The position numbers and the translations under genes are program-made. DNA of 64,000 nt from Methylobacter sp. (GTDB taxonomy: Bacteria > Pseudomonadota > Gammaproteobacteria > Methylococcales > Methylomonadaceae): positions 1 to 64,000 of the forward strand of contig NZ_SCTW01000009.1 in NCBI RefSeq assembly GCF_004322395.1, in the 5' to 3' direction. The stretch's first letter is position 1, and every line of letters starts with the position of its first letter. Shown in pieces: positions 9,272-53,798 of the stretch. Below the pieces are notes generated by a model. It saw only the letters and a list, made by a program, of their open reading frames with translations, had not been told where the DNA came from and did no database searches.

Positions 9272-10678
<1,407 letters not shown>

Positions 10679-10703
10679 GCTATATATCTAATAGGTATCA
10701 ATC

Positions 10704-11126
10704 ATGACCATGACCGTACACGTAGACATCGTTAGTGCAGAAAAGGAAATATTTTCCGGATTGGCGGAAATGGTGTTTGCTCCTGCTGAGCTCGGCGAAG
10801 TGGGTATATCGCCACGGCATGCGCCGTTAATATCCAGACTTAAACCTGGTGAAGTCCGGGTAAAAGTCAGCGATAAGGAAATTTATCCGTTCTATGTGTC
10901 GGGAGGTATGCTGGAGATACAACCGCATGTGGTTACCATTTTGGCTGACACGGCTATCAGAGCGAAAGATATTGACGAGGCGGCTGCGATAGAAGCCAAA
11001 GCCAGAGCGGAAGAAGCATTGGCGGATAAGTCCGGCAAAATTGATTTTGCAACAGCTCAGGCACAATTAACGGATGCCGTTATGCAATTAAGGACATTGG
11101 ATAGACTTAGAAAGCGCGGCGGGTAG
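10704..11126 (+). CDS. atpC: F0F1 ATP synthase subunit epsilon
   Basis: A 140-residue subunit that binds gamma and can inhibit ATP hydrolysis. The N-terminal beta-sandwich contains VSAEKEIFSGLAEMVFAPAE and GEVGISPRHAPL; the C-terminal part is a two-helix regulatory domain (AAAIEAKARAEEAL). ATG 10704 is used; ATG 10710 two codons downstream is equally possible. It is the last gene of the operon, followed by a strong terminator. Confidence 0.96.
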   Translation: MTMTVHVDIVSAEKEIFSGLAEMVFAPAELGEVGISPRHAPLISRLKPGEVRVKVSDKEIYPFYVSGGMLEIQPHVVTILADTAIRAKDIDEAAAIEAKARAEEALADKSGKIDFATAQAQLTDAVMQLRTLDRLRKRGG

Positions 11127-11162
11127 TTGGGATATACACGGTATATCTTTAGCTTTTTTAGA

Positions 11163-11196
11163 AGCCCGGTACGTGTAAGCGCTATCGGGCTTTTTT
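11163..11196 (+). terminator. Rho-independent terminator of the atp operon
   Basis: AGCCCGGTA (11163-11171) pairs with TATCGGGCT (11183-11191) with one G-T pair, followed directly by a run of six T. It separates atpC from glmU, so glmU and glmS need their own promoter or read-through. Confidence 0.9.
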
Positions 11197-11276
11197 GGTT
11201 TCACGTCAGGCTGTCCTGCCTGACGCCCTTTGGGTAAATGCAAATCTGTTCCAGACAGATTTGTAACGGAGTATCT

Positions 11277-12647
11277 ATGAAAATAACAACCATTATTCTG
11301 GCAGCGGGTAAGGGAACGCGTATGCGTTCGGAACTGCCCAAAATTTTACACGAAATTGCCAACAGACCATTGCTGAGACATGTCTACGACACAGCTAAGC
11401 AATTGGAAAATAATACTGTTAAGGTTGTTGTCGGCCATGGTGCAGAGTTGGTCACAGGCGCTTTAAGTCACTTAGATGCCGATTGGATAGAGCAAAAGCA
11501 GCAGTTGGGCACAGGACATGCCGTGCAACAGACTAGCGATCAAATTGCCGATTCCGATACTGTTTTAATACTATATGGCGATGTGCCATTACTGAAATTA
11601 ATAACCGTTAAGCTATTGATAAGTAATGTTAATGACCGGTCGATGGCTTTACTCACAGTGAATCTCGCCAATCCAACCGGTTACGGCAGAATAGTTCGAG
11701 ATGCCGCCGGCCAGGTTATAAAAATTGTTGAAGAAAAAGATGCGACAACAAGCGAAAAAAAGATCAATGAAGTTAATACCGGTATTATGGCGGTGCAAGG
11801 AAAGCAATTAAAGAAATGGTTGAGCCAGTTAAACAACCACAATGCGCAGGGCGAATACTATTTAACTGACGTGATTGAAATGGCGGTAGCCGATCAAATC
11901 AATATCGTTACCAGCCAGCCTGAAACTGAGGATGAAGTGCTGGGCGTTAATAATCGTATACAGCTCAGCCACCTGGAGCGTGTCTATCAGCAAGAACAAG
12001 CCTATAGTTTGATGGAACGAGGCGTTACCCTAAAAGACCCGATGCGCTTTGATCAAAGAGGTTCAATAGAAAATCTGGGGCAAGACATAGAAATCGATAT
12101 TAATGTGATTTTAGAAGGGAAAAACAGCATCGGCAGTCATGTCAAAATAGGCGCCAACACCCAAATAAAAAATTCAATCATCGGCGACCATGTGGAAATT
12201 TTGTCAAATTGCGTGATAGAAGATGCAGTTATAGGACAAGGCAGCCGAATCGGTCCTTATGCCAGACTCAGGCCTGAAAGTGTTTTGGCTAACGATGTTC
12301 ATATCGGTAATTTTGTAGAAATAAAGAAATCGTCGGTAGCATCGGGCAGTAAAATAAATCATTTAAGTTACATCGGCGACACGACGGTGGGCAGTAAAGT
12401 CAATATAGGCGCCGGCACCATTACTTGTAATTATGACGGCGTTAACAAGTTTAGAACCGTTATTGAAGACGGTGCTTTTATAGGTTCCGATACCCAGTTG
12501 GTCGCTCCGGTTACGATAGGTAAAAACGCTACGATAGGTGCAGGATCGACGATTACCAAAGACAGTCCTGAGAATCAGTTAACTTTAAGCAGAGCCAAAC
12601 AGATGTCCATTACAGGATGGCAACGACCCGTTAAAAAGGAGATATAA
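11277..12647 (+). CDS. glmU: Bifunctional GlcN-1-P acetyltransferase / GlcNAc-1-P uridyltransferase
   Basis: A 456-residue cytoplasmic enzyme making UDP-GlcNAc for peptidoglycan and lipid A. The N-terminal uridyltransferase domain has [15 protein letters not shown]. The C-terminal half is a left-handed beta-helix of hexapeptide repeats ([19 protein letters not shown]) with [10 protein letters not shown] near the acetyltransferase site. ATG 11277 behind CGGAG is chosen over an upstream ATG at 11238 because residue 2 onward then matches the family start. Length equals that of E. coli GlmU. glmS begins two bases after its stop, so they form an operon supplying and using glucosamine phosphate. 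Confidence 0.97.
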
Positions 12648-35725: not shown

Positions 35726-36454
35726 ATGTTTAACAACCCTTTTATCAAACAACTGTTCGGCAGTTTTCTGGATTTGGCGCCTATTCTTGCGGTTGTTTTG
35801 GTATTCCAGGTTTTGATTATTCGGCAACCTATTCCCGATGTCGGCAGTTTAATTGCCGGTATTCTGTTTGTTATTCTCGGTCTAACCCTGTTTGTCCAAG
35901 GGCTTGAACAAAGCCTGTTCCCGATTGGCGAATCAATGGCTTATGCGTTTGCCCGCAAAGGCAGCTTGTTCTGGCTGCTGGCATTTGCCTTCTGCCTGGG
36001 GTTTGGCGCTGCAATCGCTGAACCGGCGCTGATCGCGGTTGCAGAAAAAGCCGCAAACATCGCCGCTAACGGTAATCTTATAGAACAAACCGATGCCGCA
36101 AAGGCCAGTTATGCTCTGGGGTTGCGCATTACCGTCGCGTTGTCTATCGGTCTGGCTATTTTGATTGGTGTGTTGAGAGTTATCCGGGGCTGGCCGGTAC
36201 ATTACCCGGTTTTCTTCGGTTATGTATGTATTGCCATTATGACGCCTTTCGCGCCTGTCGAGATCATTGGCATCGCCTATGATGCCGGCGGCATCGCTAC
36301 GTCCAGCATTACCGTTCCGTTGGTGACTGCCCTGGGGGTTGGTTTGGCGACATCAATCAAAGGCCGCAACCCGATGACCGATGGTTTTGGTCTTGTGGTC
36401 TTTGCGTCATTAATGCCGACGATTTTTTTGATGGCTTACGGGATGGCTATATGA
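35726..36454 (+). CDS. DUF1538 membrane protein, first copy
   Basis: A 242-residue polytopic membrane protein, about six helices. Conserved family motifs are GFGAAIAEPALIAVA (a Glu-Pro in a helix), YDAGGIATSSITVPLVTAL and a GRNP loop. The family is thought to be a transporter, but I know of no confirmed substrate. The last four bases overlap the second copy (ATGA), so the two are co-translated and probably assemble as a heteromer. Confidence 0.85.
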   Translation: MFNNPFIKQLFGSFLDLAPILAVVLVFQVLIIRQPIPDVGSLIAGILFVILGLTLFVQGLEQSLFPIGESMAYAFARKGSLFWLLAFAFCLGFGAAIAEPALIAVAEKAANIAANGNLIEQTDAAKASYALGLRITVALSIGLAILIGVLRVIRGWPVHYPVFFGYVCIAIMTPFAPVEIIGIAYDAGGIATSSITVPLVTALGVGLATSIKGRNPMTDGFGLVVFASLMPTIFLMAYGMAI

Positions 36455-37230
36455 TCGACTGGCTGATTCGTTTTGCGCTGAAGCTGGTGGAGACCTGCCG
36501 CGATATTTTACCTATTGCCGCGACTATTATCGGTTTTCAACTACTGGTGATCCGCAAACCTTTGGCTTATCCCGGAAAAATCATCATCGGCTTTTTTTAT
36601 GTCTTGCTGGGTATTGTGTTCTTTCTGGAAGGACTGGATCTGGCTTTGTTTCCGCTGGGAAATTTGATGGCGTCGCAGTTGACCACGCCTGAATTTTTGG
36701 GCGTTAATCCGCTTGACCAGACTGTCTCTTGGCAATCCTATTTTTGGGTCTATATTTTTGCGGCCAGCATTGGATTTAGCACGGCGTTGGCTGAGCCTGC
36801 CCTGCTTGCTGTCGCCCTTAGAGCCGAACAAATTTCAGGCGGCACGATTCGCGCATGGGGATTAAGAATTTCTGTAGCCATCGGTGTGGGTTTGGGACTC
36901 GCCCTCGGTACTTTTCGGATCGTTACGGGTTCGGAACTCTATTTATATATTATCGGCGGTTATATCCTCGTTATGATACAGACCCGGTTCGCCCCCAAGC
37001 TGATTATCGGTCTGGCCTACGATTCGGGCGCGGTCACGACATCGATGGTTACCGTGCCGCTGGTTACTGCATTGGGTTTGGGGCTGGCCTCCACCGTTCC
37101 CGGTCGCAACCCGTTATTGGATGGCTTCGGCTTGATCGCCTTTGCCTGTTTATTCCCGATCATCGCTGTCTTGGGTTACGCGCAAATTGCACAATGGCGT
37201 AGCAAAGGCAGTCTTTCACCCAAACCCTGA
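36451..37230 (+). CDS. DUF1538 membrane protein, second copy
   Basis: A 259-residue paralogue of the preceding gene with the same motifs: GFSTALAEPALLAVALRAE, YDSGAVTTSMVTVPLVTALG and PGRNPLLDGFGL. The matching Glu-Pro and Ser/Thr motifs in both suggest inverted or paired transport halves. It overlaps the first copy by four bases and is followed eight bases later by a PII-like gene. Confidence 0.85.
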   Translation: MIDWLIRFALKLVETCRDILPIAATIIGFQLLVIRKPLAYPGKIIIGFFYVLLGIVFFLEGLDLALFPLGNLMASQLTTPEFLGVNPLDQTVSWQSYFWVYIFAASIGFSTALAEPALLAVALRAEQISGGTIRAWGLRISVAIGVGLGLALGTFRIVTGSELYLYIIGGYILVMIQTRFAPKLIIGLAYDSGAVTTSMVTVPLVTALGLGLASTVPGRNPLLDGFGLIAFACLFPIIAVLGYAQIAQWRSKGSLSPKP

Positions 37231-37238
37231 GGAACACC

Positions 37239-37589
37239 ATGCATTTCAAATTAATTATCGTATTTGTCGAAGATGATAAGACTGACTTGGTGCTTGATAC
37301 GGCACGAGAAAACGGCGCTAAAGGCGCAACCGTGGTCAATAATGCGCGCGGCGAAGGTACGAAACAATCGAAAACTTTTTTCGGCCTGACCCTGGAAACT
37401 CAGCGCGATGTGCTGCTATTGCTGGTCGAAGAGCATCTTAGCCGGCACATTCTGGAAGCCATCGCCAAGGCGGCGCAATTCGACAGCAAGCCCGGTACCG
37501 GCATTGCCATTCAAATCGATGTCGAAGACGCTGTCGGCGTCATGCATCAGGTTGAATTATTAACCCACGAACTTGAGGATAAAATATGA
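37239..37589 (+). CDS. PII-like signalling protein
   Basis: A 116-residue protein with a ferredoxin-like PII fold: MHFKLIIVFVEDDKTDLVLD, GAKGATVVNNARGEG (T-loop region), and the B-loop equivalent GTGIAIQIDVEDAVGV. It lacks the uridylylated tyrosine motif of GlnB and belongs to the broader PII-like group that binds nucleotides and regulates neighbouring transporters. Position between DUF1538 and CBS genes points to control of the DUF1538 pair. Overlaps the CBS gene by four bases. Confidence 0.82.
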   Translation: MHFKLIIVFVEDDKTDLVLDTARENGAKGATVVNNARGEGTKQSKTFFGLTLETQRDVLLLLVEEHLSRHILEAIAKAAQFDSKPGTGIAIQIDVEDAVGVMHQVELLTHELEDKI

Positions 37590-37996
37590 TTCCGCCACGC
37601 ATTATAATTCGTGTCAGAGATGTGATGAAAGCCGACTTCGCCACTATCGACGGCATTGCTACCGTAGAAGATGCCCTGAAAAAGATGAAATCGCTTAAAA
37701 CATCGGTACTGGTCGTCAATAAACGTCATGACGATGACGAATACGGCTTGATTAATTCCGGCGACATTGCCCGCCATGTGTTGGCCAAAGACCGTGCACC
37801 GGATCGGGTCAATGTTTATGAGGTCATGAATAAACCGGTGATTTCAGTCCATCCCGATATGGACATCCGCTATTGTTCGCGTTTATTTGCCAACTATAAT
37901 CTGGTTAGGGCGCCGGTCATTGAAAATAACAAAATTATCGGCATGGTCAGCCCGAATTCATTGGTATTGGATGGGATGTACAGGGCTTGTCAATAA
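37586..37996 (+). CDS. CBS-domain protein
   Basis: A 136-residue protein with two CBS motifs (VRDVMKADFATIDGIATVED and VYEVMNKPVISVHPDMDIRY), which together form one Bateman module that usually binds adenine nucleotides or SAM. It is the last gene of the DUF1538-DUF1538-PII-CBS operon, coupled to the PII-like gene by a 4-bp overlap. It probably gates the membrane pair in response to energy state; this is inference. Confidence 0.88.
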   Translation: MIPPRIIIRVRDVMKADFATIDGIATVEDALKKMKSLKTSVLVVNKRHDDDEYGLINSGDIARHVLAKDRAPDRVNVYEVMNKPVISVHPDMDIRYCSRLFANYNLVRAPVIENNKIIGMVSPNSLVLDGMYRACQ

Positions 37997-38203: not shown

Positions 38204-38242
38204 CATCGCTCATACAATAAACTTTTTAAAAGGTAGTTGGTC

Positions 38243-38755
38243 ATGTTGAAATTGTTAAAGTTTAATTCCAGAATCTGGTTTTTTCTAGGTTTTCTCGGCT
38301 GTGTTTTTTTGTTGTCGATGGGCGCTTATTTCCAATTTGTTCAAGGGCTGGATCCTTGCCCGTTATGTATTTCCCAGCGTATTGCGATTTTGCTGACCGG
38401 CTTGGTTTTTTTAAGCGCCGCCATCCACAATCCGGGGCAGAAAGGCGTGACAGCGTATGCTATTTCAGGCGCGGTAACGGCGTTGTGCGGCGCGGCGATT
38501 TCCACCCGGCATATCTGGATACAGCACTTACCTGCTGATAAAGTGCCCGAATGCGGACCCGGCCTGGACTATGTGCTGCAAAACTTTCCATTGTTTGAAA
38601 CAGTCAAGTTAATGCTCAGCGGTACCGGCGATTGCGCGAAAGTGGACTGGACCATGCTGGGTTTCAGTATGCCTGCATGGACATTGCTGGCCTTTTTAAT
38701 GCTGGCAACCTTAAGTTTGCTGCAAATCTGGAATTATAGACAGACAGGCCGGTAA
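38243..38755 (+). CDS. dsbB: Disulfide bond formation protein DsbB
   Basis: A 170-residue inner-membrane quinone reductase that reoxidises DsbA. Four hydrophobic helices are present. The first periplasmic Cys pair is CPLC in GLDPCPLCISQRIA; the second pair is in VPECGPG and TGDCAKVDW. ATG 38243 is chosen; a TTG two codons upstream is in frame and closer to AAAAGGT. dsbA is 14 kb away on the other strand. Confidence 0.94.
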   Translation: MLKLLKFNSRIWFFLGFLGCVFLLSMGAYFQFVQGLDPCPLCISQRIAILLTGLVFLSAAIHNPGQKGVTAYAISGAVTALCGAAISTRHIWIQHLPADKVPECGPGLDYVLQNFPLFETVKLMLSGTGDCAKVDWTMLGFSMPAWTLLAFLMLATLSLLQIWNYRQTGR

Positions 38756-38854: not shown

Positions 38855-41800
38855 ATGCAATCACTGATTGATCTTTTCGGTGTTAAAAACCTGATTCCCC
38901 ATGGCTATTGCCTGTCGTGGAGCCCGGTATTACTTTGGTTAAACGTGATCTCGGATCTGCTGATCACGCTCTTCTATTATTCCATTCCACTGATGCTGGT
39001 CTATTTTATCCGGCGGCGCAAAGACTTACCCTACCCTGGACTGGTTGCCATGTTTGCCGTATTCATTATGGCTTGCGGCACCACGCATTTATTATCGGCG
39101 ATCACGCTCTGGATACCTTTATATTGGCTGGACGCCTTGTTTAAAGGCCTTACGGCGATTATTTCGGCCGCCACCGCCGCGTTGATGCTACGGGTTATCC
39201 CCCGCGCTTTGTCTGTACCCAGTGCGGCGCAATTACAAGCGGAGATGCAACAAAGAAAAACAGCAGAGGAAGCATTACATATTGCCAATGTTGAATTACA
39301 GGAAAATATCGCGCGCACCCAACTGCTATTGGACTCAGCGCTGGATGGAATTGTCAGCATAGATCATAACGGTAATGTAGTCGGCTGGAATAACCAAGCC
39401 GAGCATATATTCGGTTATTCCGCCGAGCAAGCATTAGGGCGCCAAATAGCAGAGTTAATCGTTCCTCTTGATTATCGGGAAAAACATCGCCAAGGCTTAT
39501 TGCGATTTATGTCCACGGGTGTGTCGCACATTATCGGCACACGCGTGGAAACTACCGGTGTGCGCAAAGATGGCTCGGAATTTCCAATCGAGCTGACTGT
39601 CAGCGCTCTGGAACAAAATGACAGATATCTTTTTAACGCCTATGTCCGCGATATTTCCGAGCGCAAACAGGCAGAGGCGGCGCAACGGGACGCTTTGGAT
39701 AAGCTACAGAAAATAGCCGCCCAACTGCCCGGAGTGGTATTTCAATTTCGCTTGCGTGCCGACGGCAGTTGCTGTCTTCCCTACGCCAGTGACGTACTGC
39801 ACGACATTTACCGCTTTGATCCCGAAGAAGTACGCGATGATGCCGCAAAGGTGTTTGCCGATGTCCACCCTGATGACTTAGAGCAACACTTGGCTTCCAT
39901 TCAAACTTCAGCGCATGATTTAACTCCTTGGCGCAATGAATACCGACTTAGATTTGCCGATGGCACGGAACGCTGGTTATTCGGTAACGCTTTGCCGCAA
40001 CGCGAACAAGACGGCTCGGTGCTTTGGCATGGTTTCGTGAGCGATATAAGCGAGCGTAAGCAGATGGAGGAAAAGCTGCGCGACAGCGATGCCTTTAATC
40101 TCAGCATCCTTAACTCGCTGACTTCGAATATTGCCGTGCTGGATGCGCAGGGTATTATCGTTGCCGTTAACAACGCATGGCGGCGATTTGCCGCAGAAAA
40201 CGGCTTATTGGAATCCGGGCAGGATATGTTGGGTATTAATTACCTGGATACCTGTAAAAATGCCGTCAACCGGCCTTATGGCGATGAGGCAAACGCTGCT
40301 CGGGCCGGTATTGCGGCGGTGCTGGCGGGTGAGCAGGAGTCATTCCATTTGGAGTATCCTTGCCACTCGCCCGCTCAGCAACGCTGGTTCTACATGAATG
40401 TGTCGCCATTGCGGGGCTCACGTAGCGGAGTTGTAGTCAGCCATGAAAACATCACCGAGCGCAAAAAAGCGCAAGAATTAACTCAAGCCGCTTATCAATA
40501 TTCCCGCAGTTTGATTGAGGCGAGTCTGGATCCCTTGGTGACAATCAGCGCCACCGGTAAGATCACCGATGTCAACAGCGCCACGGAACAGGTAACCGGC
40601 GTGAACCGAAACAACCTGATCGGCAGCGATTTTGCTGACTATTTTACCAATCCCGACAAAGCCCGCGATGGATATTTGCAAGTGTTCTCGCAAGGTTTTG
40701 TGAACGATTACCCGCTGGCCATTCGTCATACGTCAGGCAATGTCACTGAGGTGCTTTATAACGCAAGCGTATACCGCGACGAAAATGGCGACGTACTTGG
40801 CGTGTTCGCCGCAGCGAGGGACATCACCGAGCGCAAACTAATGGAAGATGAGCTAAAAGCCAGCGAGGCCAAATTCCGTTCGATTATTGAAGTATCTCCG
40901 GTGCCGATGGCGTTGAATGACGAACAGTTGAACATTACTTTCCTGAATCAGGCGTTTGTGCAAACCTTCGGTTACACTGTAGATGACATTCCCACCCTGG
41001 CCGACTGGTGGCCGAAAGCTTATCCCGATCCGGACTACCGGCATTGGGTGGCCGAGACTTGGCAAGCGGCGCTTGAAAACGCCGAGCGGGAACACCAGCC
41101 ATTTCGGCCTATGGAACTTAATATTCGTAGTAAAGATGGCGTGGTTAAAACCGTGTTGGCGAGTGCCGCGATAATTGCCGATTCCTTTAAGGATGAGCAT
41201 TTAGTGGTGCTGTATGACATTACAGAACGCAAACAGGCAGAACTGGCAAAGCGTCATAGCGAAGAGCAGCTACAGGCATTTTATGAATTGGATCTGGTGG
41301 GGTTGACGATTACTTCACCCGAAAAGGGCTGGATTCGAATTAATGATTGCCTGTGCAGAATGCTGGAATATTCGGAACAAAGCTTGCGCCAAATGACTTG
41401 GGCGGAACTGACGCATCCCGACGATTTAGCCGCCGATATTGAGCAATTTAATAAGTTGCTGGCTAATGAAATTAATGGTTACGCCTTAGAAAAACGCTTT
41501 GTCAGCCGCACCGGCAAAATCATTCCCACTAAATTGGTAGTGCGCAGTATCCGTAAGACTAATGGTGAACTTGATTATGTTGTGGCGATGGTCGAAGACA
41601 TCACCGAATATAAACAAGCCGAAGCCGAGCTGAAACGTTCTAATGCCGAGTTGGAGCAATTCGCCTATGCGGTGTCCCACGATATGCGCCAGCCGTTGCG
41701 CATGGTGAGCAGTTATTTATCGTTGATTGAAAACGCCTTGACCGGCTCACTGGATGAAGAAAAGCAACAGTTTCTCGATTTTGCTATTGATGGCGCTAAA

Positions 41801-42337
41801 CGCATGGATACGATGATTTTATCGTTGCTGGATTATTCTCGGGTAGGACGTAAAACTGAAACCAAAACTCGGATTAGCAGCAAGGCTTCTTTAGATGAAG
41901 CGCTGGCTTTTTTGAGCCCCGAACTCAGCGTTTGCGGCGGCGAAATTAAAGTAACCGGCGCTTGGCCCGAATTGATTGCCAGTCGTGATGAATTAACGCG
42001 CCTGCTGCAAAACCTGATAGGCAACGCGCTTAAATATCACGAAGAAAATCAAGCGCCGCAGGTTCATGTTCACGGAATAGCCTCTGCCTCATTATTACGA
42101 GTAGAAGTGCGCGATCAAGGTATCGGTATTGAACCGAGTCAAATGGATCGACTGTTTAAGGTGTTTTCGCGTTTGCAGGCGCGCAGCCGTTTTGGCGGCA
42201 CCGGCGTCGGCTTGGCATTGTGCCGAAAAATTGTCGAACATCATGGGGGCGCCATTGGCGTAGAATCAGCAGGCGAAGGGCAGGGTTGTGTGTTTTGGTT
42301 TGAATTGCCCATGGCGAGTATTGTAAATGCCGAATAG
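38855..42337 (+). CDS. Multi-PAS histidine kinase with ethylene-receptor-like membrane domain
   Basis: A 1160-residue kinase. Residues 20-125 form three membrane helices closely resembling the ethylene-binding domain of plant ETR1. D34, Y41, C74 and H78 occupy the positions of ETR1 D25, Y32, C65 and H69 with identical spacing (SDLLITLFYYSIP; CGTTHLL); in ETR1 the Cys and His hold copper(I). Six PAS domains follow, each ending in a D-I-S/T-E-R/Y-K-type linker. The HisKA phosphoacceptor is H942 (AVSHDMRQPLR), and a HATPase domain contains NALKYH, DQGIGI and GTGVGLAL. No receiver domain; partner regulators lie downstream. Start ATG 38855 gives the family N-terminus. Confidence 0.92.
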   Translation: MQSLIDLFGVKNLIPHGYCLSWSPVLLWLNVISDLLITLFYYSIPLMLVYFIRRRKDLPYPGLVAMFAVFIMACGTTHLLSAITLWIPLYWLDALFKGLTAIISAATAALMLRVIPRALSVPSAAQLQAEMQQRKTAEEALHIANVELQENIARTQLLLDSALDGIVSIDHNGNVVGWNNQAEHIFGYSAEQALGRQIAELIVPLDYREKHRQGLLRFMSTGVSHIIGTRVETTGVRKDGSEFPIELTVSALEQNDRYLFNAYVRDISERKQAEAAQRDALDKLQKIAAQLPGVVFQFRLRADGSCCLPYASDVLHDIYRFDPEEVRDDAAKVFADVHPDDLEQHLASIQTSAHDLTPWRNEYRLRFADGTERWLFGNALPQREQDGSVLWHGFVSDISERKQMEEKLRDSDAFNLSILNSLTSNIAVLDAQGIIVAVNNAWRRFAAENGLLESGQDMLGINYLDTCKNAVNRPYGDEANAARAGIAAVLAGEQESFHLEYPCHSPAQQRWFYMNVSPLRGSRSGVVVSHENITERKKAQELTQAAYQYSRSLIEASLDPLVTISATGKITDVNSATEQVTGVNRNNLIGSDFADYFTNPDKARDGYLQVFSQGFVNDYPLAIRHTSGNVTEVLYNASVYRDENGDVLGVFAAARDITERKLMEDELKASEAKFRSIIEVSPVPMALNDEQLNITFLNQAFVQTFGYTVDDIPTLADWWPKAYPDPDYRHWVAETWQAALENAEREHQPFRPMELNIRSKDGVVKTVLASAAIIADSFKDEHLVVLYDITERKQAELAKRHSEEQLQAFYELDLVGLTITSPEKGWIRINDCLCRMLEYSEQSLRQMTWAELTHPDDLAADIEQFNKLLANEINGYALEKRFVSRTGKIIPTKLVVRSIRKTNGELDYVVAMVEDITEYKQAEAELKRSNAELEQFAYAVSHDMRQPLRMVSSYLSLIENALTGSLDEEKQQFLDFAIDGAKRMDTMILSLLDYSRVGRKTETKTRISSKASLDEALAFLSPELSVCGGEIKVTGAWPELIASRDELTRLLQNLIGNALKYHEENQAPQVHVHGIASASLLRVEVRDQGIGIEPSQMDRLFKVFSRLQARSRFGGTGVGLALCRKIVEHHGGAIGVESAGEGQGCVFWFELPMASIVNAE

Positions 42338-42419
42338 AAACTCTGTATGAATGTCCTATTACACGAGTTTCTTCTCTAAACCTAAGCGCTTGAGCTTACT
42401 TAAAATTGGAAGGTACCCT

Positions 42420-43475
42420 ATGTTTTTTTTCGATTGGAAACGGCGCGCACTGTTCACACAACAAAAGCGCTTCGTTTGGAAAGCCCTTATGGCCTTGATG
42501 TTCATCGCAACGCTCGCGGGTTGCCAAAAGTCATCGTCCGATAACAAAGAGCAACGAAGCGCAGAACCATTACAGAAAATCACCGTTGCTTACACCTACC
42601 AACCACAAAGCACCTTGGTTCACATTGCAGTGTCGAAAGGATACTTTGCCGAGGAGGGCTTCGATATCCAGCCGCTGATGCATACCTATGGCAAGGCGGC
42701 GCTGCAATCGGTTATCGAGAACAAGGCTGACTTTGCGACAGTCGCGGAAACTCCCGTCATGTTCAATGTGCTCAAGGGCGAAAAGATTTTCGTGATCGCC
42801 AACATCGAAGCAAGTTCCATGAATAACGCAATTGTTGCAAGAAAGGACGCCGGCATCGCCTCGCCCGGCGACTTGAAAGGGAAGCGCATAGGCTTTACGC
42901 CCGGCACCACGTCGGACTTCTTCCTGGATTCGCTGTTGACGGCAAACGGTTTGATTCGGCAGGAAATCGAGCCTGTCCCGCTGAAACCGGAGGAAATGCA
43001 GGATGCTGTCATGGCAAAAAAGGTCGATGCTGTTTCCACCTGGAACTATCCATTGACTCAGATCAGCCGAATGCTTGGAGCGGATGGAACGGTCTTTTAC
43101 GACAAGGAAATCTATACCGAAACATTCAATATCGCCTCGAGACAAGATTTTGTCCGGAACAATCCTGATGCAGTCAAACGCTTTCTACGTGCCCTGATCA
43201 AGGCGGAGGATTTCGTTACCAAGAATCCGGATGAAGCGCAGTCCATCATGTCTTTAGCAACCAAAATAGACAAAGATCTCATTCATGAAGTCTGGAATGA
43301 CTTTAATTACCGCGTTGTGCTTGACCAGACACTCCTGATCACGCTGGAGGATGAAACAAGATGGGCGATGAAGAACAAGCTGACCGATCAAACGGTCATG
43401 CCCGACTACCTGAGCTTCATCGATATTGACAGCCTCAAGGCGGTCAAACCCGAAGCGATCAGGATGAACCGGTAG
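42420..43475 (+). CDS. ABC-type substrate-binding lipoprotein (NrtA/SsuA/ThiY-like)
   Basis: A 351-residue protein with a lipoprotein signal (ATLAGCQ, lipidated Cys near 38) and a type II periplasmic-binding fold typical of nitrate, sulfonate and taurine binders: VAYTYQPQSTLVHIAVSKGY, DLKGKRIGFTPGTTSDF, FLRALIKAEDFVTKNPDEA. ATG 42420 has GGAAGG upstream; an earlier in-frame ATG at 42351 would add 23 residues and spoil the signal. No permease or ATPase gene is adjacent. It is followed four bases later by a histidine kinase, so it probably presents a ligand to that kinase. Confidence 0.88.
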   Translation: MFFFDWKRRALFTQQKRFVWKALMALMFIATLAGCQKSSSDNKEQRSAEPLQKITVAYTYQPQSTLVHIAVSKGYFAEEGFDIQPLMHTYGKAALQSVIENKADFATVAETPVMFNVLKGEKIFVIANIEASSMNNAIVARKDAGIASPGDLKGKRIGFTPGTTSDFFLDSLLTANGLIRQEIEPVPLKPEEMQDAVMAKKVDAVSTWNYPLTQISRMLGADGTVFYDKEIYTETFNIASRQDFVRNNPDAVKRFLRALIKAEDFVTKNPDEAQSIMSLATKIDKDLIHEVWNDFNYRVVLDQTLLITLEDETRWAMKNKLTDQTVMPDYLSFIDIDSLKAVKPEAIRMNR

Positions 43476-43479
43476 ACGA

Positions 43480-45342
43480 ATGCGCATCACTACCCGGCTA
43501 AGGGTTATTTCAGCAGTTACGATAGCCGCTTTTGTCGTTTTGGCGCCGGTACTTGTCTGGTCGTTGATCGAATTCAAAAATGCCAAAAGCGACTACGTTC
43601 TTTCCGGCACGATTCGGGATAATGCTTTCGAACGCACCTCATTCAGGGATCAGTATTTCCTGTATCGCGAAGACCGCGCGCGGGTGCAGTGGAACGAAAA
43701 TAAAGAAACAGCCGACAGTTTGTTGCGTCAAGCCAATACCCAATTTCATGGTGAAGAAAACCTGCAAGCCCTGGAACGACTGCATAGGAATATTGAAGAC
43801 AGTGCGGTTATTTTCCACCGCATCGTCAGCAATACCGAAGCATTGAGAGCAGCGGGCAATAACCGCTACGTTTATGAAGAGCTCGACAAAAGGCTTGCCA
43901 GCCAACTGCTGCTGAAGGCCGCTACAATCCGCGATATTGCGTCTGCTTTACAGAATGCAAGCACACGGCGAGTCGAGCAGGCTTACCGCTACCTGACCAT
44001 CATTGTCGGCTTGTTTGCAATTATTCTGGCTCTTGCCACCGTTTTGACGTCGGTACAGTTGGACAGGTTGATTCGCAAGCGCTTGGTACCGCTGCACGAT
44101 GGCGCAAGAATTGTTGCCGACGGAGATCTGGCATACAGAATCCAGTGTGACGATGTTGATGAGTTTGCCGAACTCGCCCTGTCTATCAATGCCATGACGG
44201 AAAGCCTTCAAGTTTCCACCAAGCAGCTCGAGGCGGAAATCAGTGCGCATAAGTCGGTAGAAATCGCTTTGCGCGATAGTGAGGAGCGCCTTCAGATGGT
44301 GCTGACCGGGGCCGAAATGGCCACTTGGGACTGGCGCATTCCAAGCGGAGAACTGATTTTCAATGCCCGGTGGGCTGAAATACAAGGCTATACGTTGGAG
44401 GAGTTACCCCCGCGTATTGAAAGTTGGGAAACGCGCGTTTTTCCGGATGACATGCCTCAGGTAAGAGAAAAACTCGACCGTCATTTCAAAGGGGAAACTC
44501 CAGTCTACGAGTCCGAGCACCGTGTGCGCCACAAAGACGGCCATTGGGTTTGGGTGCTAGGCCGGGGCAAGGTTATTGAATGGGACGGCGCGGGCAATCC
44601 TGTCCATGCTGTAGGTACCGCACTCGACATCACGGAGCGAAAGCAAATTGAGAATAAACTGGCACGCGCCCACGCCGAATTGCAGCAGTTTACTCACATT
44701 GCCGCACATCATTTGCAAGAGCCGGCGCGGCGTCTGGTGAGTTTTGCGCAACGTTTGCGAACACAGGTGCCAACAGAGCTGTTAAACGAGGACGCAACAG
44801 CGTCGCTGCATTTTATTGAACAAAGCGCCACACGGCAAAGCACCCTGGTGCGCGATATCCAGTTATATCTTGCCGCCGACCAGCCGCGCAGTATCGTAGA
44901 GAAAATTGCCGTTTCGCCCGTTATTACTAACTTGCTGGAGCATAAGGTATCGTTAATGCGTGAAACGGGTGCACAGGTAGATTACGATAATATTTGTTCC
45001 GCTTACATCGATAGTCCCCGCTTGAAAGATATTTTCAGTATTTTACTGGACAATGCCTTACGTTACCGTCATCCTAAGCTTACGTCCCATATACGGATTA
45101 GTGGCGAATTAAAAGCGGGACGGGCGGTTTATCGCGTTATTGATAACGGTATCGGCATCCCTGCAGAATACCGGGAGCGCGTTTTTGGAGTATTTGAACG
45201 TTTGCAGGTGCATGAAGATCAAAATTCCACGGGCATCGGCCTGGCAATTGTACGGCGCATTGTTGAAAGCTGCGGCGGTTCAGTAATATTGCAGGAAACG
45301 CCGGGCGGCGGTACAACGGTTGTATTGGATTTGCCAGGATAA
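43480..45342 (+). CDS. Sensor histidine kinase (periplasmic sensor, HAMP, PAS)
   Basis: A 620-residue inner-membrane kinase. Membrane helices at about 9-30 and 168-190 flank a helical periplasmic domain. A HAMP domain (RKRLVPLHDGARIVADGDLA) and a PAS domain (EERLQMVLTGAEMATWDWRI) follow. The phosphoacceptor is H410 in IAAHHLQEPARR, and the ATPase domain has DNALRYRH, DNGIGIP and GIGLAIV. It starts four bases after the binding-lipoprotein gene, suggesting the two sense together, as in systems where a periplasmic protein docks on a kinase. Confidence 0.9.
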   Translation: MRITTRLRVISAVTIAAFVVLAPVLVWSLIEFKNAKSDYVLSGTIRDNAFERTSFRDQYFLYREDRARVQWNENKETADSLLRQANTQFHGEENLQALERLHRNIEDSAVIFHRIVSNTEALRAAGNNRYVYEELDKRLASQLLLKAATIRDIASALQNASTRRVEQAYRYLTIIVGLFAIILALATVLTSVQLDRLIRKRLVPLHDGARIVADGDLAYRIQCDDVDEFAELALSINAMTESLQVSTKQLEAEISAHKSVEIALRDSEERLQMVLTGAEMATWDWRIPSGELIFNARWAEIQGYTLEELPPRIESWETRVFPDDMPQVREKLDRHFKGETPVYESEHRVRHKDGHWVWVLGRGKVIEWDGAGNPVHAVGTALDITERKQIENKLARAHAELQQFTHIAAHHLQEPARRLVSFAQRLRTQVPTELLNEDATASLHFIEQSATRQSTLVRDIQLYLAADQPRSIVEKIAVSPVITNLLEHKVSLMRETGAQVDYDNICSAYIDSPRLKDIFSILLDNALRYRHPKLTSHIRISGELKAGRAVYRVIDNGIGIPAEYRERVFGVFERLQVHEDQNSTGIGLAIVRRIVESCGGSVILQETPGGGTTVVLDLPG

Positions 45343-45596: not shown

Positions 45597-46055
45597 ATGA
45601 TAAGCGAAATTATTAGCCCTCCCTTTGTTGAAATTTTGCTGTTGGAAGATGAGCCTTCGGATGCATACTTGGTAAAAACGGCGTTAAAAGAAGGCAAGGT
45701 GCTGGCACATTTGTACCATGTGGTTGACGGACGCGAGGGGCTGGATTTTTTAAATAGAACAGAAAAATATGCCGATGCGCCGCGCCCGGATTTGATTTTT
45801 CTCGACCTTAATATGCCGCGCATGAACGGCTGCGAATTTTTAGCCGTCATCAAAGAAGATGACCGCTTTAAGAGCATTCCTGTGGTGGTATTGACGACCT
45901 CCGATGTTGAAAAAGACGTAGTCTCTTCTTATCATCTCGGTGCGGCCAGCTACATCACCAAGCCTATCGACATGCCGCAATTTATTAAGGCCGTTCAGCA
46001 GATTGGCGATTATTGGTTTAGCCTGGTGCGTTTGCCGGAGAGTTACAAGCCATGA
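45597..46055 (+). CDS. Response regulator, single receiver domain (Rcp1-like)
   Basis: A 152-residue receiver-only protein. Acidic pocket LLEDEPSDA, phosphoacceptor D70 in FLDLNMPRMNG, Thr in VVLTTSD and Lys in YITKPID. Receiver-only regulators of this type (Rcp1-like) commonly pair with PAS- or phytochrome-linked kinases whose HisKA ends resemble those of the two upstream kinases. Its last four bases overlap the next gene (ATGA). Confidence 0.93.
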   Translation: MISEIISPPFVEILLLEDEPSDAYLVKTALKEGKVLAHLYHVVDGREGLDFLNRTEKYADAPRPDLIFLDLNMPRMNGCEFLAVIKEDDRFKSIPVVVLTTSDVEKDVVSSYHLGAASYITKPIDMPQFIKAVQQIGDYWFSLVRLPESYKP

Positions 46056-47332
46056 ATCGGACCGAAGTGATTCGGGTGTTGCTGGTAGAAGATGAAGCCG
46101 GCGATGCGCATCTGGTAAAAATAAAATTAGGACAAGCTCAGAGCGGACATTTTGAGGTGGTCTGGGTTCAGTCGCTCATTGAAGCGCAACGGCGTTTGGC
46201 GGACTCGTCTTTTGATGTAATGCTGCTGGATTTGTCCTTACCCGATTCAGATGGTTTGGAAACCATTCATAGCGCGCGAGTCATGGCGATGGATGTTCCT
46301 ATCGTGGTGCTCAGCGGGCACGGCGACACCGACTTTGCGCTGACCGCGTTGGAGGCGGGGGCTGTGGATTACATGGTCAAGGGCGATTTCGGTTATGACG
46401 GTTTGGCTCGGGTGATTCGTTACGCGCTGCTGCGAACCGAAATGGAGGCTCGTAACAACTTACTGATAGCCGCATTGGAGGCGGCAGCAAACGGTATTGT
46501 TATTACCGATAAAGACGCAATTATTATCTGGGCTAATCCCGCGTTTAGCCGATTGACCGGATATAGCCTGGAAGAATCAGCAGGCAAAAACCCGAATCAA
46601 TTAACCAAATCCGGTATCCAGAATAAAGTCTTTTATCAGGACATGTGGACAGATCTTCTAGCCGGTCAGCATTGGCGCGGCGAACTTGTTAACAAGCGCA
46701 AAAATGGCAGCTTATATCATGAGGAACTTAGCATTGCCTCGGTAAAAAACAGCGCAGGCAACATTACCCACTTTATCGGCATTAAAGAAGATATTACCGA
46801 GCGCAAGAAGATGGAAGCGCAATTGCTAGAACTTGCCAGCACCGATCCTTTGACCGGGTTATTTAACCGCCGCGTATTTTTGGAACGGCTGGAACAGGAA
46901 AGAGCGAAAGTGGAGCGATTACTCCATTATTCAGCGGTGTTGTTAATGCTGGATTTGGATTTTTTTAAACGGGTCAATGACATTTACGGCCACGCCATGG
47001 GCGATGCCGTGTTAAAAGCTTTTGCCGAAATCGTGCGTAATAACTCGCGAGCTATCGATATTCCGGCGCGCTTGGGTGGGGAAGAGTTTGCTATTTTGTT
47101 GGCCGGAGCCGACAAGAAAGATGCCCTAAAAATGGCTGAACGTTTGCGGCAGCAGGTTGCAGAGATCGCTATCGATCATGAAGTAGGCCCAGTACAAATT
47201 ACAGTTAGCATCGGCGCCGCTATCTTATTGGCCGCTGATAGTAATGGCGAAGCGGTGTTGCATCGCGCAGATGAGGCTTTGTATGAAGCTAAAGACAGAG
47301 GACGTAATCAGACGTACTGGTTTTGTTCTTAG
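46052..47332 (+). CDS. Response regulator with PAS and GGDEF domains (diguanylate cyclase)
   Basis: A 426-residue protein: receiver domain (phosphoacceptor D60 in MLLDLSLPDSDG), PAS domain (about 145-255, IVITDKDAIIIWANPAFSRL) and GGDEF domain (about 262-425) with intact RLGGEEF, preceded by a RAID inhibitory site five residues upstream. It should make cyclic di-GMP on phosphorylation, the likely output of the upstream kinases. Translationally coupled to the receiver-only regulator. Confidence 0.94.
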   Translation: MNRTEVIRVLLVEDEAGDAHLVKIKLGQAQSGHFEVVWVQSLIEAQRRLADSSFDVMLLDLSLPDSDGLETIHSARVMAMDVPIVVLSGHGDTDFALTALEAGAVDYMVKGDFGYDGLARVIRYALLRTEMEARNNLLIAALEAAANGIVITDKDAIIIWANPAFSRLTGYSLEESAGKNPNQLTKSGIQNKVFYQDMWTDLLAGQHWRGELVNKRKNGSLYHEELSIASVKNSAGNITHFIGIKEDITERKKMEAQLLELASTDPLTGLFNRRVFLERLEQERAKVERLLHYSAVLLMLDLDFFKRVNDIYGHAMGDAVLKAFAEIVRNNSRAIDIPARLGGEEFAILLAGADKKDALKMAERLRQQVAEIAIDHEVGPVQITVSIGAAILLAADSNGEAVLHRADEALYEAKDRGRNQTYWFCS

Positions 47333-51979: not shown

Positions 51980-52924
51980 ATGACAAGATTAACGGCAGAA
52001 GTGCCATTTGAAATGGCCGGCATGCGCTTGGATCAGGTGCTTGCCGAATTGTTTACGGATTATTCGCGCAGCAAGCTGCAAACTTGGGTTAAAGCCGGCC
52101 GGGTGCAAGTCAACGGTTTGGCTCTTAAGCCAAAAGACAAGCTGGACGGTGGCGAACTGATAACGCTGGATGCCGAGGCGGAAGTCGTGGTGACCTCTGA
52201 AGCCGAAGCCATTCCTTTGGATATTATCTTTGAAGATGAAAGTATATTAATTGTAAATAAACCGGCAGGCTTGGTTGTGCATCCGGCAGTAGGAAACTGG
52301 AACGGTACGCTGCTGAATGCGCTGCTGAATCATGATCCGAATCTGGAAACCTTGCCCAGAGCTGGCATAGTGCACAGGATCGATAAGGAAACCAGCGGAC
52401 TGCTGATGATTGCAAAAACCTTGCAAGCTCATAACAGTTTGACCGGGCAGTTACAGGACCGAGATATTACTCGCGAGTATCTGGCGATCACCCGCGGCCG
52501 GATGACGGCAGGCGGTACGGTCGATGAACCTATCGGCAGGCACCCGACCGACCGCAAGCGCTATGCGGTCAGGGAGAATGGCAAGCATGCAGTGACCCAT
52601 TATCGGGTTGCTCAGCGTTTCACCCGGCATACTTTGGTTCAGGTTAAGCTGGAAACCGGCCGTACCCATCAGATCAGGGTGCATATGGCGCATATCCGTT
52701 TTCCGTTGCTGGGCGATCAGGTTTATGGCGGACGTTTTCAAATGCCGCCCGATTGCAGCGAACGGCTGGAAAAGGAATTGCGTAGTTTCAAGCGCCAAGC
52801 CTTGCATGCGGCAAAATTGGGTTTGCAGCATCCCGTTACCGATGAATATTGCGAATGGGAGCAGCCGCTTCCCGAGGATATGACCCGATTGCTGGAAGCG
52901 TTGGCGGAAAATGAACGGGATTAA
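51980..52924 (+). CDS. rluD: 23S rRNA pseudouridine synthase RluD
   Basis: A 314-residue enzyme that modifies 23S rRNA helix 69. An N-terminal S4 domain (MRLDQVLAELFTDYSRSKLQ) is followed by the RluA-type catalytic domain with HRIDKETSGLL, where the Asp is catalytic, and TGRTHQIRVHMAHI. The bamD-rluD divergent pair followed by pgeF is the usual gammaproteobacterial order. Its end overlaps pgeF by 14 bases. Confidence 0.95.
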   Translation: MTRLTAEVPFEMAGMRLDQVLAELFTDYSRSKLQTWVKAGRVQVNGLALKPKDKLDGGELITLDAEAEVVVTSEAEAIPLDIIFEDESILIVNKPAGLVVHPAVGNWNGTLLNALLNHDPNLETLPRAGIVHRIDKETSGLLMIAKTLQAHNSLTGQLQDRDITREYLAITRGRMTAGGTVDEPIGRHPTDRKRYAVRENGKHAVTHYRVAQRFTRHTLVQVKLETGRTHQIRVHMAHIRFPLLGDQVYGGRFQMPPDCSERLEKELRSFKRQALHAAKLGLQHPVTDEYCEWEQPLPEDMTRLLEALAENERD

Positions 52925-53798
52925 GCACTGGCTAGCTCCGGACTGGCCCGCTCCGGCTAATATTCATGCGGCAACTACGTTGCGTAGCGGCGGAGCCAGT
53001 TGCGGTGCTTACGCCAGTCTTAATCCGGCCATGCACGTGGGCGACGATGTTGACTTGGTCAAGCAAAATCGGCAACTGATTAAAGAATTGCTAACTTTAC
53101 CTAGCGATCCGGTTTGGCTGGATCAAATACACAGCAATCGAGCAGTGCAGGTACATTCCACTTTTGCAAAGGGGGGCCGGGGGGATTTGAATTTGCAACA
53201 AGCCGACGCTGGTTACACGGCTGAGTCTGGGGTTGTCTGTGCAGTGCTGACAGCGGATTGTTTGCCGTTGCTGGTCTGCGCGGCTGACGGAAGTCAAGTA
53301 GCCGCTATTCATGCCGGTTGGCGAGGCTTGTTAAGAGGGGTGATAGGCAATACCATAACTGCAATGGAAATCCCCCCTAGCCCCCCTTTTACAAAGGGGG
53401 AAGTCAGTCAGCCCCATCTCAACCTCTCTTTTATAAAGGGTGAGGCTGCTCAGCTCTCAAATATCGAACCCAATCCCCCCCTTTGTAAAAGGGGGGCTAG
53501 GGGGGATTTTCTGGTTTGGCTGGGCCCTGCAATCGGCCCAAACTGCTTTGAGGTAGGCGCTGAAGTGCGGGATGCTTTTCTGAAGAAGTCGACAAAATTC
53601 ACGACGGCTTTTACAGAGCAAAGCAACGGCAAGTGGCTGGCGGACATTTATCAGCTGGCTCGGATCGATTTGGCTATGCTGGGCATCGATAAGATTTACG
53701 GCGGCGGTTTTTGCACCGTCACCGAACATGAGCGTTTTTATTCTTATCGTCGGGATAAACAAACAGGCCGGATGGCTACGTTAATATGGAGAGAATAA
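52911..53798 (+). CDS. pgeF: Peptidoglycan editing factor PgeF (YfiH, laccase-domain) with repeat-derived insertions
   Basis: A 295-residue protein of the CNF1/YfiH family (purine nucleoside phosphorylase/adenosine deaminase activities reported; also linked to peptidoglycan precursor fidelity). The zinc-site residues are present: His in DQIHSNRAV, Cys in LTADCLPLLVC, His in AAIHAGWRG. A C/G-rich palindromic repeat element lies in frame near residues 150-200 (IPPSPPFTKGE ... PPLCKRGARGDF), and a half copy near residue 85 (FAKGGRGDL). It is about 50 residues longer than E. coli YfiH (243), matching the inserted segment. Overlaps rluD, so the frame is selected for translation coupling. Confidence 0.9.
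   Translation: MNGIKHWLAPDWPAPANIHAATTLRSGGASCGAYASLNPAMHVGDDVDLVKQNRQLIKELLTLPSDPVWLDQIHSNRAVQVHSTFAKGGRGDLNLQQADAGYTAESGVVCAVLTADCLPLLVCAADGSQVAAIHAGWRGLLRGVIGNTITAMEIPPSPPFTKGEVSQPHLNLSFIKGEAAQLSNIEPNPPLCKRGARGDFLVWLGPAIGPNCFEVGAEVRDAFLKKSTKFTTAFTEQSNGKWLADIYQLARIDLAMLGIDKIYGGGFCTVTEHERFYSYRRDKQTGRMATLIWRE
53368..53509. repeat. Palindromic repeat element inside the pgeF coding sequence
   Basis: 33-base arms 53368-53400 and 53477-53509 are perfect inverse complements (AAATCCCCCCTAGCCCCCCT and its partner). The 76-bp centre contains a weaker internal copy (CTTTTATAAAGGGTGAGG). A half copy is at 53162-53188. This C/G-block palindrome type occurs in many bacterial genomes. Confidence 0.9.

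Follow-up and report, generated by a model that had tools for sequence, protein, structure and literature searches.

The window, a stretch of 64,000 nucleotides from the start of contig NZ_SCTW01000009.1 of Methylobacter sp. (assembly GCF_004322395.1), contains a long open reading frame for a histidine kinase (hereafter the window kinase) whose N-terminal membrane part is of the ethylene-binding type. The gene order around it is two DUF1538 genes, a PII-like gene, a CBS gene, dsbB, the window kinase, an NMT1-type lipoprotein, a HAMP-PAS kinase, a response regulator, a response regulator-PAS-GGDEF protein, a methyltransferase-like protein and PriA; neighbours without a Pfam match were named from a reading of their sequence. 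The features are:

35726..37996, forward strand: a pair of DUF1538 proteins, one PII-like and one CBS-domain protein, considered to lie outside the system (first protein by Pfam DUF1538, the others by sequence reading; synteny)
38237..38755, forward strand: DsbB, a disulfide-forming membrane protein, directly upstream of the window kinase (Pfam DsbB; synteny)
38855..42337, forward strand: ethylene-binding-domain, multi-PAS histidine kinase of 1160 aa with an ATG start (open reading frame; Pfam ETR1_N, PAS, HisKA, HATPase_c)
38897..38911, forward strand: PHGYC (P15-C19), immediately ahead of transmembrane helix 1 and outside the Pfam match (alignment; domain counts)
38930..39217, forward strand: ETR1_N domain, residues 26-121, with three transmembrane helices (Pfam; AlphaFold2 helices)
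38954..38956, forward strand: codon of D34 (ETR1 D25; residue correspondence at constant offset)
39074..39076, forward strand: codon of C74 (ETR1 C65, copper ligand; residue correspondence at constant offset)
39086..39088, forward strand: codon of H78 (ETR1 H69, copper ligand; residue correspondence at constant offset)
41651..41845, forward strand: HisKA phospho-acceptor domain, residues 933-997 (Pfam, 48.4 bits)
41984..42316, forward strand: HATPase_c kinase domain, residues 1044-1154 (Pfam, 88.4 bits)
42351..43475, forward strand: NMT1/THI5-like substrate-binding lipoprotein (Pfam NMT1; synteny; lipoprotein signal by eye)
43480..45342, forward strand: second histidine kinase, HAMP-PAS-HATPase_c (Pfam)
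45597..46055, forward strand: single-domain response regulator, a probable phosphorelay partner (Pfam Response_reg)
46052..47332, forward strand: response regulator-PAS-GGDEF protein, a probable diguanylate cyclase output (Pfam)

The N-terminus of the window kinase matches the Pfam profile ETR1_N with an E-value of 1.8e-34 and a score of 118.3 bits (curated cut-off 27), a match far beyond chance. PAS profiles occupy the region between this domain and HisKA, with up to five stretches recognized by one profile; the Pfam search of the kinase yielded only PAS, and no GAF domain at E ≤ 0.01, after the membrane part. The names of the seven residues that ETR1 requires reportedly go back to Wang et al. 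2006. All seven are present in the window kinase: ETR1 D25, Y32, I35, P36, I62, C65 and H69 correspond to D34, Y41, I44, P45, I71, C74 and H78 at an offset of 9 throughout. Ethylene binding by ETR1 depends on seven residues, D25, C65 and H69 among them (PMC11819568, here and below in excerpt). An initial annotation of this DNA had described a histidine kinase with an ETR1-type membrane domain, had placed D34, Y41, C74 and H78 at ETR1 spacing and had proposed a comparison with a profile of ethylene-binding domains. The ETR1_N score above the curated cut-off, together with HisKA and HATPase_c, bears out that description; the numbering is right, and I44, P45 and I71 match in addition.

Three ETR1_N genes are present in the window's genome, each with seven of seven residues. 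Besides the window kinase these are a second ETR1_N kinase (paralogue C43) and an ETR1_N-PAS-GGDEF-EAL protein of 1183 aa (paralogue C75; L045:5263-8814, reverse strand), in which an ethylene-type domain sits directly on a cyclic di-GMP enzyme. Several genomes of the same genus contain an ETR1_N match resembling the C75-type paralogue in score and frame length, and one genome of the genus (G110) has six ETR1_N matches.

The membrane part was modelled with AlphaFold2 from an alignment of 58 domains, 57 of which came from loci found by a PHGxC-pattern scan. The model (pLDDT 91.0, pTM 0.79) has helices at residues 2-8, 16-22, 24-54, 61-84 and 90-119, of which the last three are the long ones; the site residues lie on the first and second of these. 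Counted in residues from the helix ends of the model, D34, C74, H78 and K97 are at similar depth from the periplasmic side. Hydropathy agrees with three transmembrane helices, and helices 1 and 2 are separated by a cluster of Arg and Lys at residues 53-56, pointing, by the positive-inside rule, to a periplasmic N-terminus. A PDB search with residues 1-126 revealed no solved relative by sequence; its lone match, an olfactory receptor at E 1.8, was taken as chance. Foldseek of the model against the PDB likewise gave no relative by fold at E ≤ 0.001.

Immediately upstream of the long helices lies PHGYC, of which P15, H16, G17 and C19 are invariant in all 13 rows of alignment A1. Counts of this motif are based on 264 unique domains, from which the 75 found only through the PHGxC pattern (loci L076-L155) were left out to give 189; eight rows gapped at column 19 and L202, whose reading departs within helix 2, were also set aside. 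Cys74 and His78 are both intact in 164 of the 189 domains. A cysteine 14-16 residues upstream of the D34 column accompanies them in 158 of these 164, and two of the six domains that have no such cysteine (L021, L220) are cut-off sequences. Bacterial ethylene-binding domains whose copper site is intact often carry PHGxC. All seven site residues are kept in 184 of the 264 unique domains and in 114 of the 189 that remain when the PHGxC-only finds are left out.

For a comparison of losses, 80% redundancy removal left 120 domains, 17 without Cys74 or His78 and 103 intact; the Fisher tests applied to these counts ignore the relatedness of the domains. Cys19 deviates in 11/17 site-loss domains versus 3/103 intact ones, His16 in 14/17 versus 15/103, and I71, a known site residue, in 15/17 versus 9/103. 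Conserved control columns deviate less (W86, 5/17 versus 10/103; P116, 2/17 versus 9/103; A101, 1/17 versus 5/103). General decay of the domain is nevertheless a live alternative, because T100, F67 and T77, which are not known site residues, also deviate together with the Cys74 or His78 losses, while the site residue I44 shows no such pattern (2/17 versus 12/103). On a tree of the 120 domains, Cys74 or His78 was lost in seven events; at the lower ends of the seven loss branches Cys19 is missing in three, His16 in four, I71 in six, and W86 and P116 in none. Cys19 and Cys74 are both lost in L056, L073, L192 and L203. One large clade of 10 tips has lost Cys74 in nine, six of which have also lost Cys19 and three of which keep it (L180, L238, L279); in L276, of the same clade, Cys19 is lost and Cys74 kept. 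Only His78 is lost, with Cys19 retained, in L177, L189 and L237, and L178, near L177, has lost Cys19 along with His78. Given this relatedness, with Cys19 missing at three of seven losses, the link between Cys19 and the copper ligands is a lead only.

Three roles for the motif are conceivable from these alignments and from analogy. Cys19 may be part of the copper site or of its loading. It may form an inter-chain disulfide, as do residues 4 and 6 of ETR1 (PMC6586836, in excerpt); the window kinase has a single cysteine, C19, before helix 1. Or the motif may simply decay along with the rest of the domain.

A search of 41 genomes with the whole kinase gave matches at E ≤ 1e-100 in 15, the window's genome included; at this threshold eight of 22 genomes of the genus had none. 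We compared 18 loci chosen for their likeness to the kinase, comprising 16 stretches from 11 of the 14 other genomes and two paralogue loci. The block of genes around the kinase is found, whole or partial, at nine of them (L049-L053, L055, L056, L061 and L062, from nine genomes of the genus), the other nine being mostly paralogous places or short contigs. An ethylene domain stands at the block position in eight of the nine relatives and is 56-87% identical to that of the window. The exception, L055, has a kinase without the domain at this position. The domain of L056 (3191-6652) carries Ser in place of Cys74 and Gly in place of Cys19, and its kinase is a natural candidate for an ethylene-blind receptor. 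Ethylene-type input is therefore dispensable in the genus, as L055 has no domain and L056 no Cys74. Eight of the nine relatives (all but L062) also show a DsbB match, and the adjoining position of DsbB and a PHGxC-bearing kinase is suggestive only.

Downstream of the kinase, seven of the nine relatives have both the response regulator and the GGDEF regulator, at 79-87% and 81-85% identity, respectively, to those of the window; in L061 only the GGDEF part is found, and L062 lacks both. More variable is the second kinase. In L049, L050, L051, L052, L053 and L056 it contains a CHASE domain (228-237 bits), and in the window and in L055 (5897-8833) an NMT1-type lipoprotein and a HAMP-PAS kinase take the place of the CHASE kinase; among the compared loci, only L055 has a relative of the lipoprotein. 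Since the types of second kinase differ and the regulators are kept, inputs are swapped and the outputs are retained. A kinase with CHASE, the input class of plant cytokinin receptors, directly adjoins an ethylene-type kinase in six Methylobacter relatives; CHASE-domain kinases include plant CRE1 and bacterial PcrK (PMC7700396, in excerpt). The second kinase of the window itself was considered as a CHASE kinase and rejected, Pfam giving HAMP and PAS; one CHASE domain is encoded elsewhere in the window's genome (G000:C51:16161-16718, L295), in an open frame of 1471 aa. By eye, no ABC permease is seen beside the NMT1-type lipoprotein and HAMP-PAS kinase in the window (42351-45342) or in L055 (5897-8833), which may mean that the binding protein works in sensing and not in uptake. 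Between the second kinase and the response regulator lie 254 bases, and a single transcript is therefore not certain. Further along the window, the open reading frame 52911-53798 (295 aa) has an extra stretch with PPSPPFTKGE-like repeats, its apparent orthologue in L049 being 244 aa long; a conserved gene seems to have gained repeats in frame here.

The most direct connection between the domain and an output is seen in L061, where a single open reading frame of 695 aa (10071-12158, reverse strand) joins an ethylene domain and PAS to the PAS-GGDEF part of the neighbouring regulator. Residues 1-437 of the fusion align with residues 1-445 of the window kinase (55%), and residues 397-693 align with residues 128-424 of the GGDEF regulator (81%), all in one reading frame; Pfam recognizes ETR1_N, PAS and GGDEF. 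In the synteny comparison, the genes that elsewhere lie between kinase and cyclase were not seen at this locus. The fusion, which lies on a contig of 127,200 bases with flanking genes in the expected order, could conceivably stem from an assembly error. The fusion of an ethylene domain to a cyclase points to a cyclic di-GMP output and, together with the GGDEF-EAL paralogue, it provides what we consider, at the level of gene architecture, the best evidence for ethylene-domain input wired to cyclic di-GMP in the genus. Across 80 loci with named carriers from the PHGxC-pattern scan, which include Methylobacter, Methylomonas, many cyanobacteria, Bradyrhizobium, Methylovorus, Pseudomonas, Rhodoferax and Verrucomicrobia, 15 had a match to the regulators within 1.5 kb downstream, nine had one only inside the open reading frame, 53 had none and three were cut off; the three queries (the window's regulators and GGDEF) came from one species, so misses are likely. 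The picture of a response regulator next door as a general rule for these kinases is accordingly mixed.

The host had tentatively been taken for a methanotroph, which is supported: the window's genome (4.59 Mb, 157 contigs) contains two AMO/PmoA-family (pMMO-family) genes and belongs to the genus Methylobacter. The occurrence of the domain was counted as genomes over the ETR1_N profile cut-off in samples drawn by family, order, class and phylum. It is present in 88/151 genomes of the window's family, 21/38 of family f4 of the same order and 40/198 of family f221 (the family of G807). The order sample gave 73/151; at E ≤ 0.001 the number is 74, all in families f1 (52) or f4 (22). The class sample gave 12/369, three of the 12 belonging to the window's order, and the phylum sample 28/398. 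For the AMO family, 122/151 genomes of the order sample and 3/398 of the phylum sample were over the cut-off; the AMO and ETR1_N counts in the order, and likewise in the phylum, were taken as the same genome draws (same size, same handles).

Viewed together, these counts place the domain frequently in two methanotroph families and rarely in the class, and it does not follow pMMO as a rule. Within the order sample, ETR1_N is over the cut-off in 67/122 genomes with an AMO-family gene versus 6/29 without, a comparison uncorrected for family and genome size; this enrichment may be explained by large genomes rich in signalling genes. In the same sample, at least 24 genomes of families f2, f3, f6, f7 and f8 have an AMO-family gene and no ETR1_N match, so that possession of pMMO does not by itself predict the domain. 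In the phylum sample, 27 of the 28 ETR1_N genomes are without an AMO-family gene, both occurring only in the window's own genome. The domain was accordingly rejected as a general marker of methanotrophy, and the special tie to methane monooxygenase or copper switching that the initial annotation had suggested finds no support in these two sets of genomes.

Among characterized proteins, the window kinase is closest in description to the established bacterial ethylene receptors SynEtr1 and AzoEtr1 (PMC11819568). AzoEtr1 of Azospirillum brasilense, whose residues 1-130 bind ethylene and which affects biofilm formation, likewise joins this domain and its seven residues to a PAS and a histidine kinase, and a response-regulator gene lies downstream of it; its D35, C75, H79 and K98 correspond to D34, C74, H78 and K97 of the window kinase (PMC11819568). 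The two differ in length and architecture (525 aa with one PAS in AzoEtr1, 1160 aa with a string of PAS domains in the window kinase), the neighbourhood of the window kinase contains a second sensor kinase and a GGDEF regulator, unlike that of AzoEtr1, and ethylene binding is established for AzoEtr1 whereas it is predicted from sequence for the window kinase (PMC11819568). SynEtr1 (slr1212, Synechocystis PCC 6803), likened here by description, is also a bacterial ethylene-binding-domain kinase, and signals through a phosphorelay to a response regulator (PMC11819568); it differs in that it also senses light. Arabidopsis ETR1 shares the seven residues at offset 9, the three transmembrane helices and the histidine kinase. 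Two traits of the plant ETR1 subfamily, GAF after the membrane part and an N-terminal Cys pair, are absent from the window kinase, which has PAS domains in place of GAF. As in a functional receptor, it possesses HisKA and HATPase_c and is accompanied by an adjoining Response_reg gene (45597-46055), which is also found in seven of the nine relatives. The CHASE-domain kinases resemble this system insofar as one is the next gene in six Methylobacter relatives; the window strain differs in having the NMT1-type binding protein and the HAMP kinase there.

From the domain with its seven residues and predicted helices, from the kinase domains and the neighbours shared with relatives, and from the one domain-cyclase fusion, we read the window kinase as a bacterial ethylene receptor kinase that feeds the adjoining regulators and cyclic di-GMP, and we give this reading a probability of roughly 0.6; copper, ethylene, the phosphorelay and its sign are inferred. 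By analogy with the ETR1 family, Cys74 and His78 would hold one Cu(I) between them, close to the periplasmic face of the three membrane helices, and this Cu(I) would be the binding site for ethylene. The change would be relayed through the PAS string to the histidine kinase, which would steer phosphate flow to the response regulator (45597-46055) and the diguanylate cyclase regulator (46052-47332). Ethylene would in this way alter cyclic di-GMP and, in a direction that we can only infer, attachment or motility. Among the points against such a pathway, the second kinase may be the real partner of the regulators, and the several PAS domains offer other inputs.

The same membrane domain could serve in other ways. 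Copper is a key metal of methanotrophs, and the kinase might report periplasmic Cu(I) itself, an empty versus a loaded site rather than ethylene being the signal. Such a copper sensor would be in keeping with the further conserved His and Cys that PHGxC puts on the predicted periplasmic side and with the higher frequency of the domain in order-sample genomes with an AMO gene (67/122 versus 6/29). For Cu(I) binding by the ETR1 domain, the dissociation constant is 1.3e-15 M (PMC6586836). We nonetheless consider it unlikely, as Y41, I44, P45 and I71, which ETR1 needs for ethylene beyond the copper ligands, are all kept, the domain does not follow the AMO/PmoA family across the phylum, and no copper genes were seen by eye in the fetched stretches beside the genome's three ETR1_N copies.

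Cu(I) sites in general bind acetylene, propylene and carbon monoxide, and acetylene is a strong inhibitor of methane monooxygenase; a Cu(I) site sensing one of these or another small Cu(I)-binding ligand is thus conceivable. Nothing in this analysis points to a different ligand, and ethylene at 100 ppb elicits responses in Azospirillum and Synechocystis, the carriers of the tested homologues (PMC11819568), which makes this alternative distinctly unlikely. That the domain is a mere membrane anchor, with sensing left to the PAS domains, agrees with the five PAS stretches (by one profile) that come after it and with the kinases of L055 and L056, the former without the domain and the latter without Cys74. 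Seven of seven site residues are not expected of an anchor, however, and the retention of all seven in 184 of 264 unique domains renders this explanation very unlikely. An ethylene receptor acting on the adjoining regulators remains our preferred reading.

Ethylene inhibits methanotrophs in their habitats and suppresses methane oxidation in soils; methane monooxygenase converts it to toxic epoxyethane, and in one methanotroph ethylene induces an epoxide-removal cluster (PMC11507031, in excerpt). The word 'receptor' occurs zero times in the text of PMC11507031, which discusses a MEDS-domain regulator. In the literature covered, excerpts of PMC5863443 included, no paper appears to treat an ethylene receptor in a methanotroph; subscription papers lay mostly outside this scope, and a report could exist there. 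Literature that joins the CHASE domain with the ethylene-binding domain consists, judged by title, mostly of plant surveys. Bacterial ethylene-binding-domain kinases are already known, with proteobacteria listed among their carriers (PMC7700396), and the window kinase adds one from a methanotroph host. New are the common occurrence of the domain in two methanotroph families, the block with swapped second kinases, the cyclase fusion and the Cys19 lead.

A wider reading, possible yet doubtful, joins these observations. On this view, the ethylene receptors of Methylobacter and many other gammaproteobacterial methanotrophs would be genuine and would govern cyclic di-GMP, letting cells settle or depart in response to a gas that their methane monooxygenase makes poisonous. 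In the genus, the receptor would be paired with an exchangeable second kinase of the CHASE or binding-protein type on one shared output, and the periplasmic Cys19 of PHGxC, with His16, would feed or complete the Cu(I) site, an element that plants lack in such form. The PHGxC lead would be relevant to bacterial ethylene receptors at large, because no solved structure of the fold was found by PDB sequence search or Foldseek.

The ETR1_N genes described here are testable candidates for how methanotrophs might sense ethylene itself, and the pathway beside the window kinase probably controls attachment or swimming. If the receptors work, ethylene from plants and microbes would influence how bacteria that limit methane emission behave.
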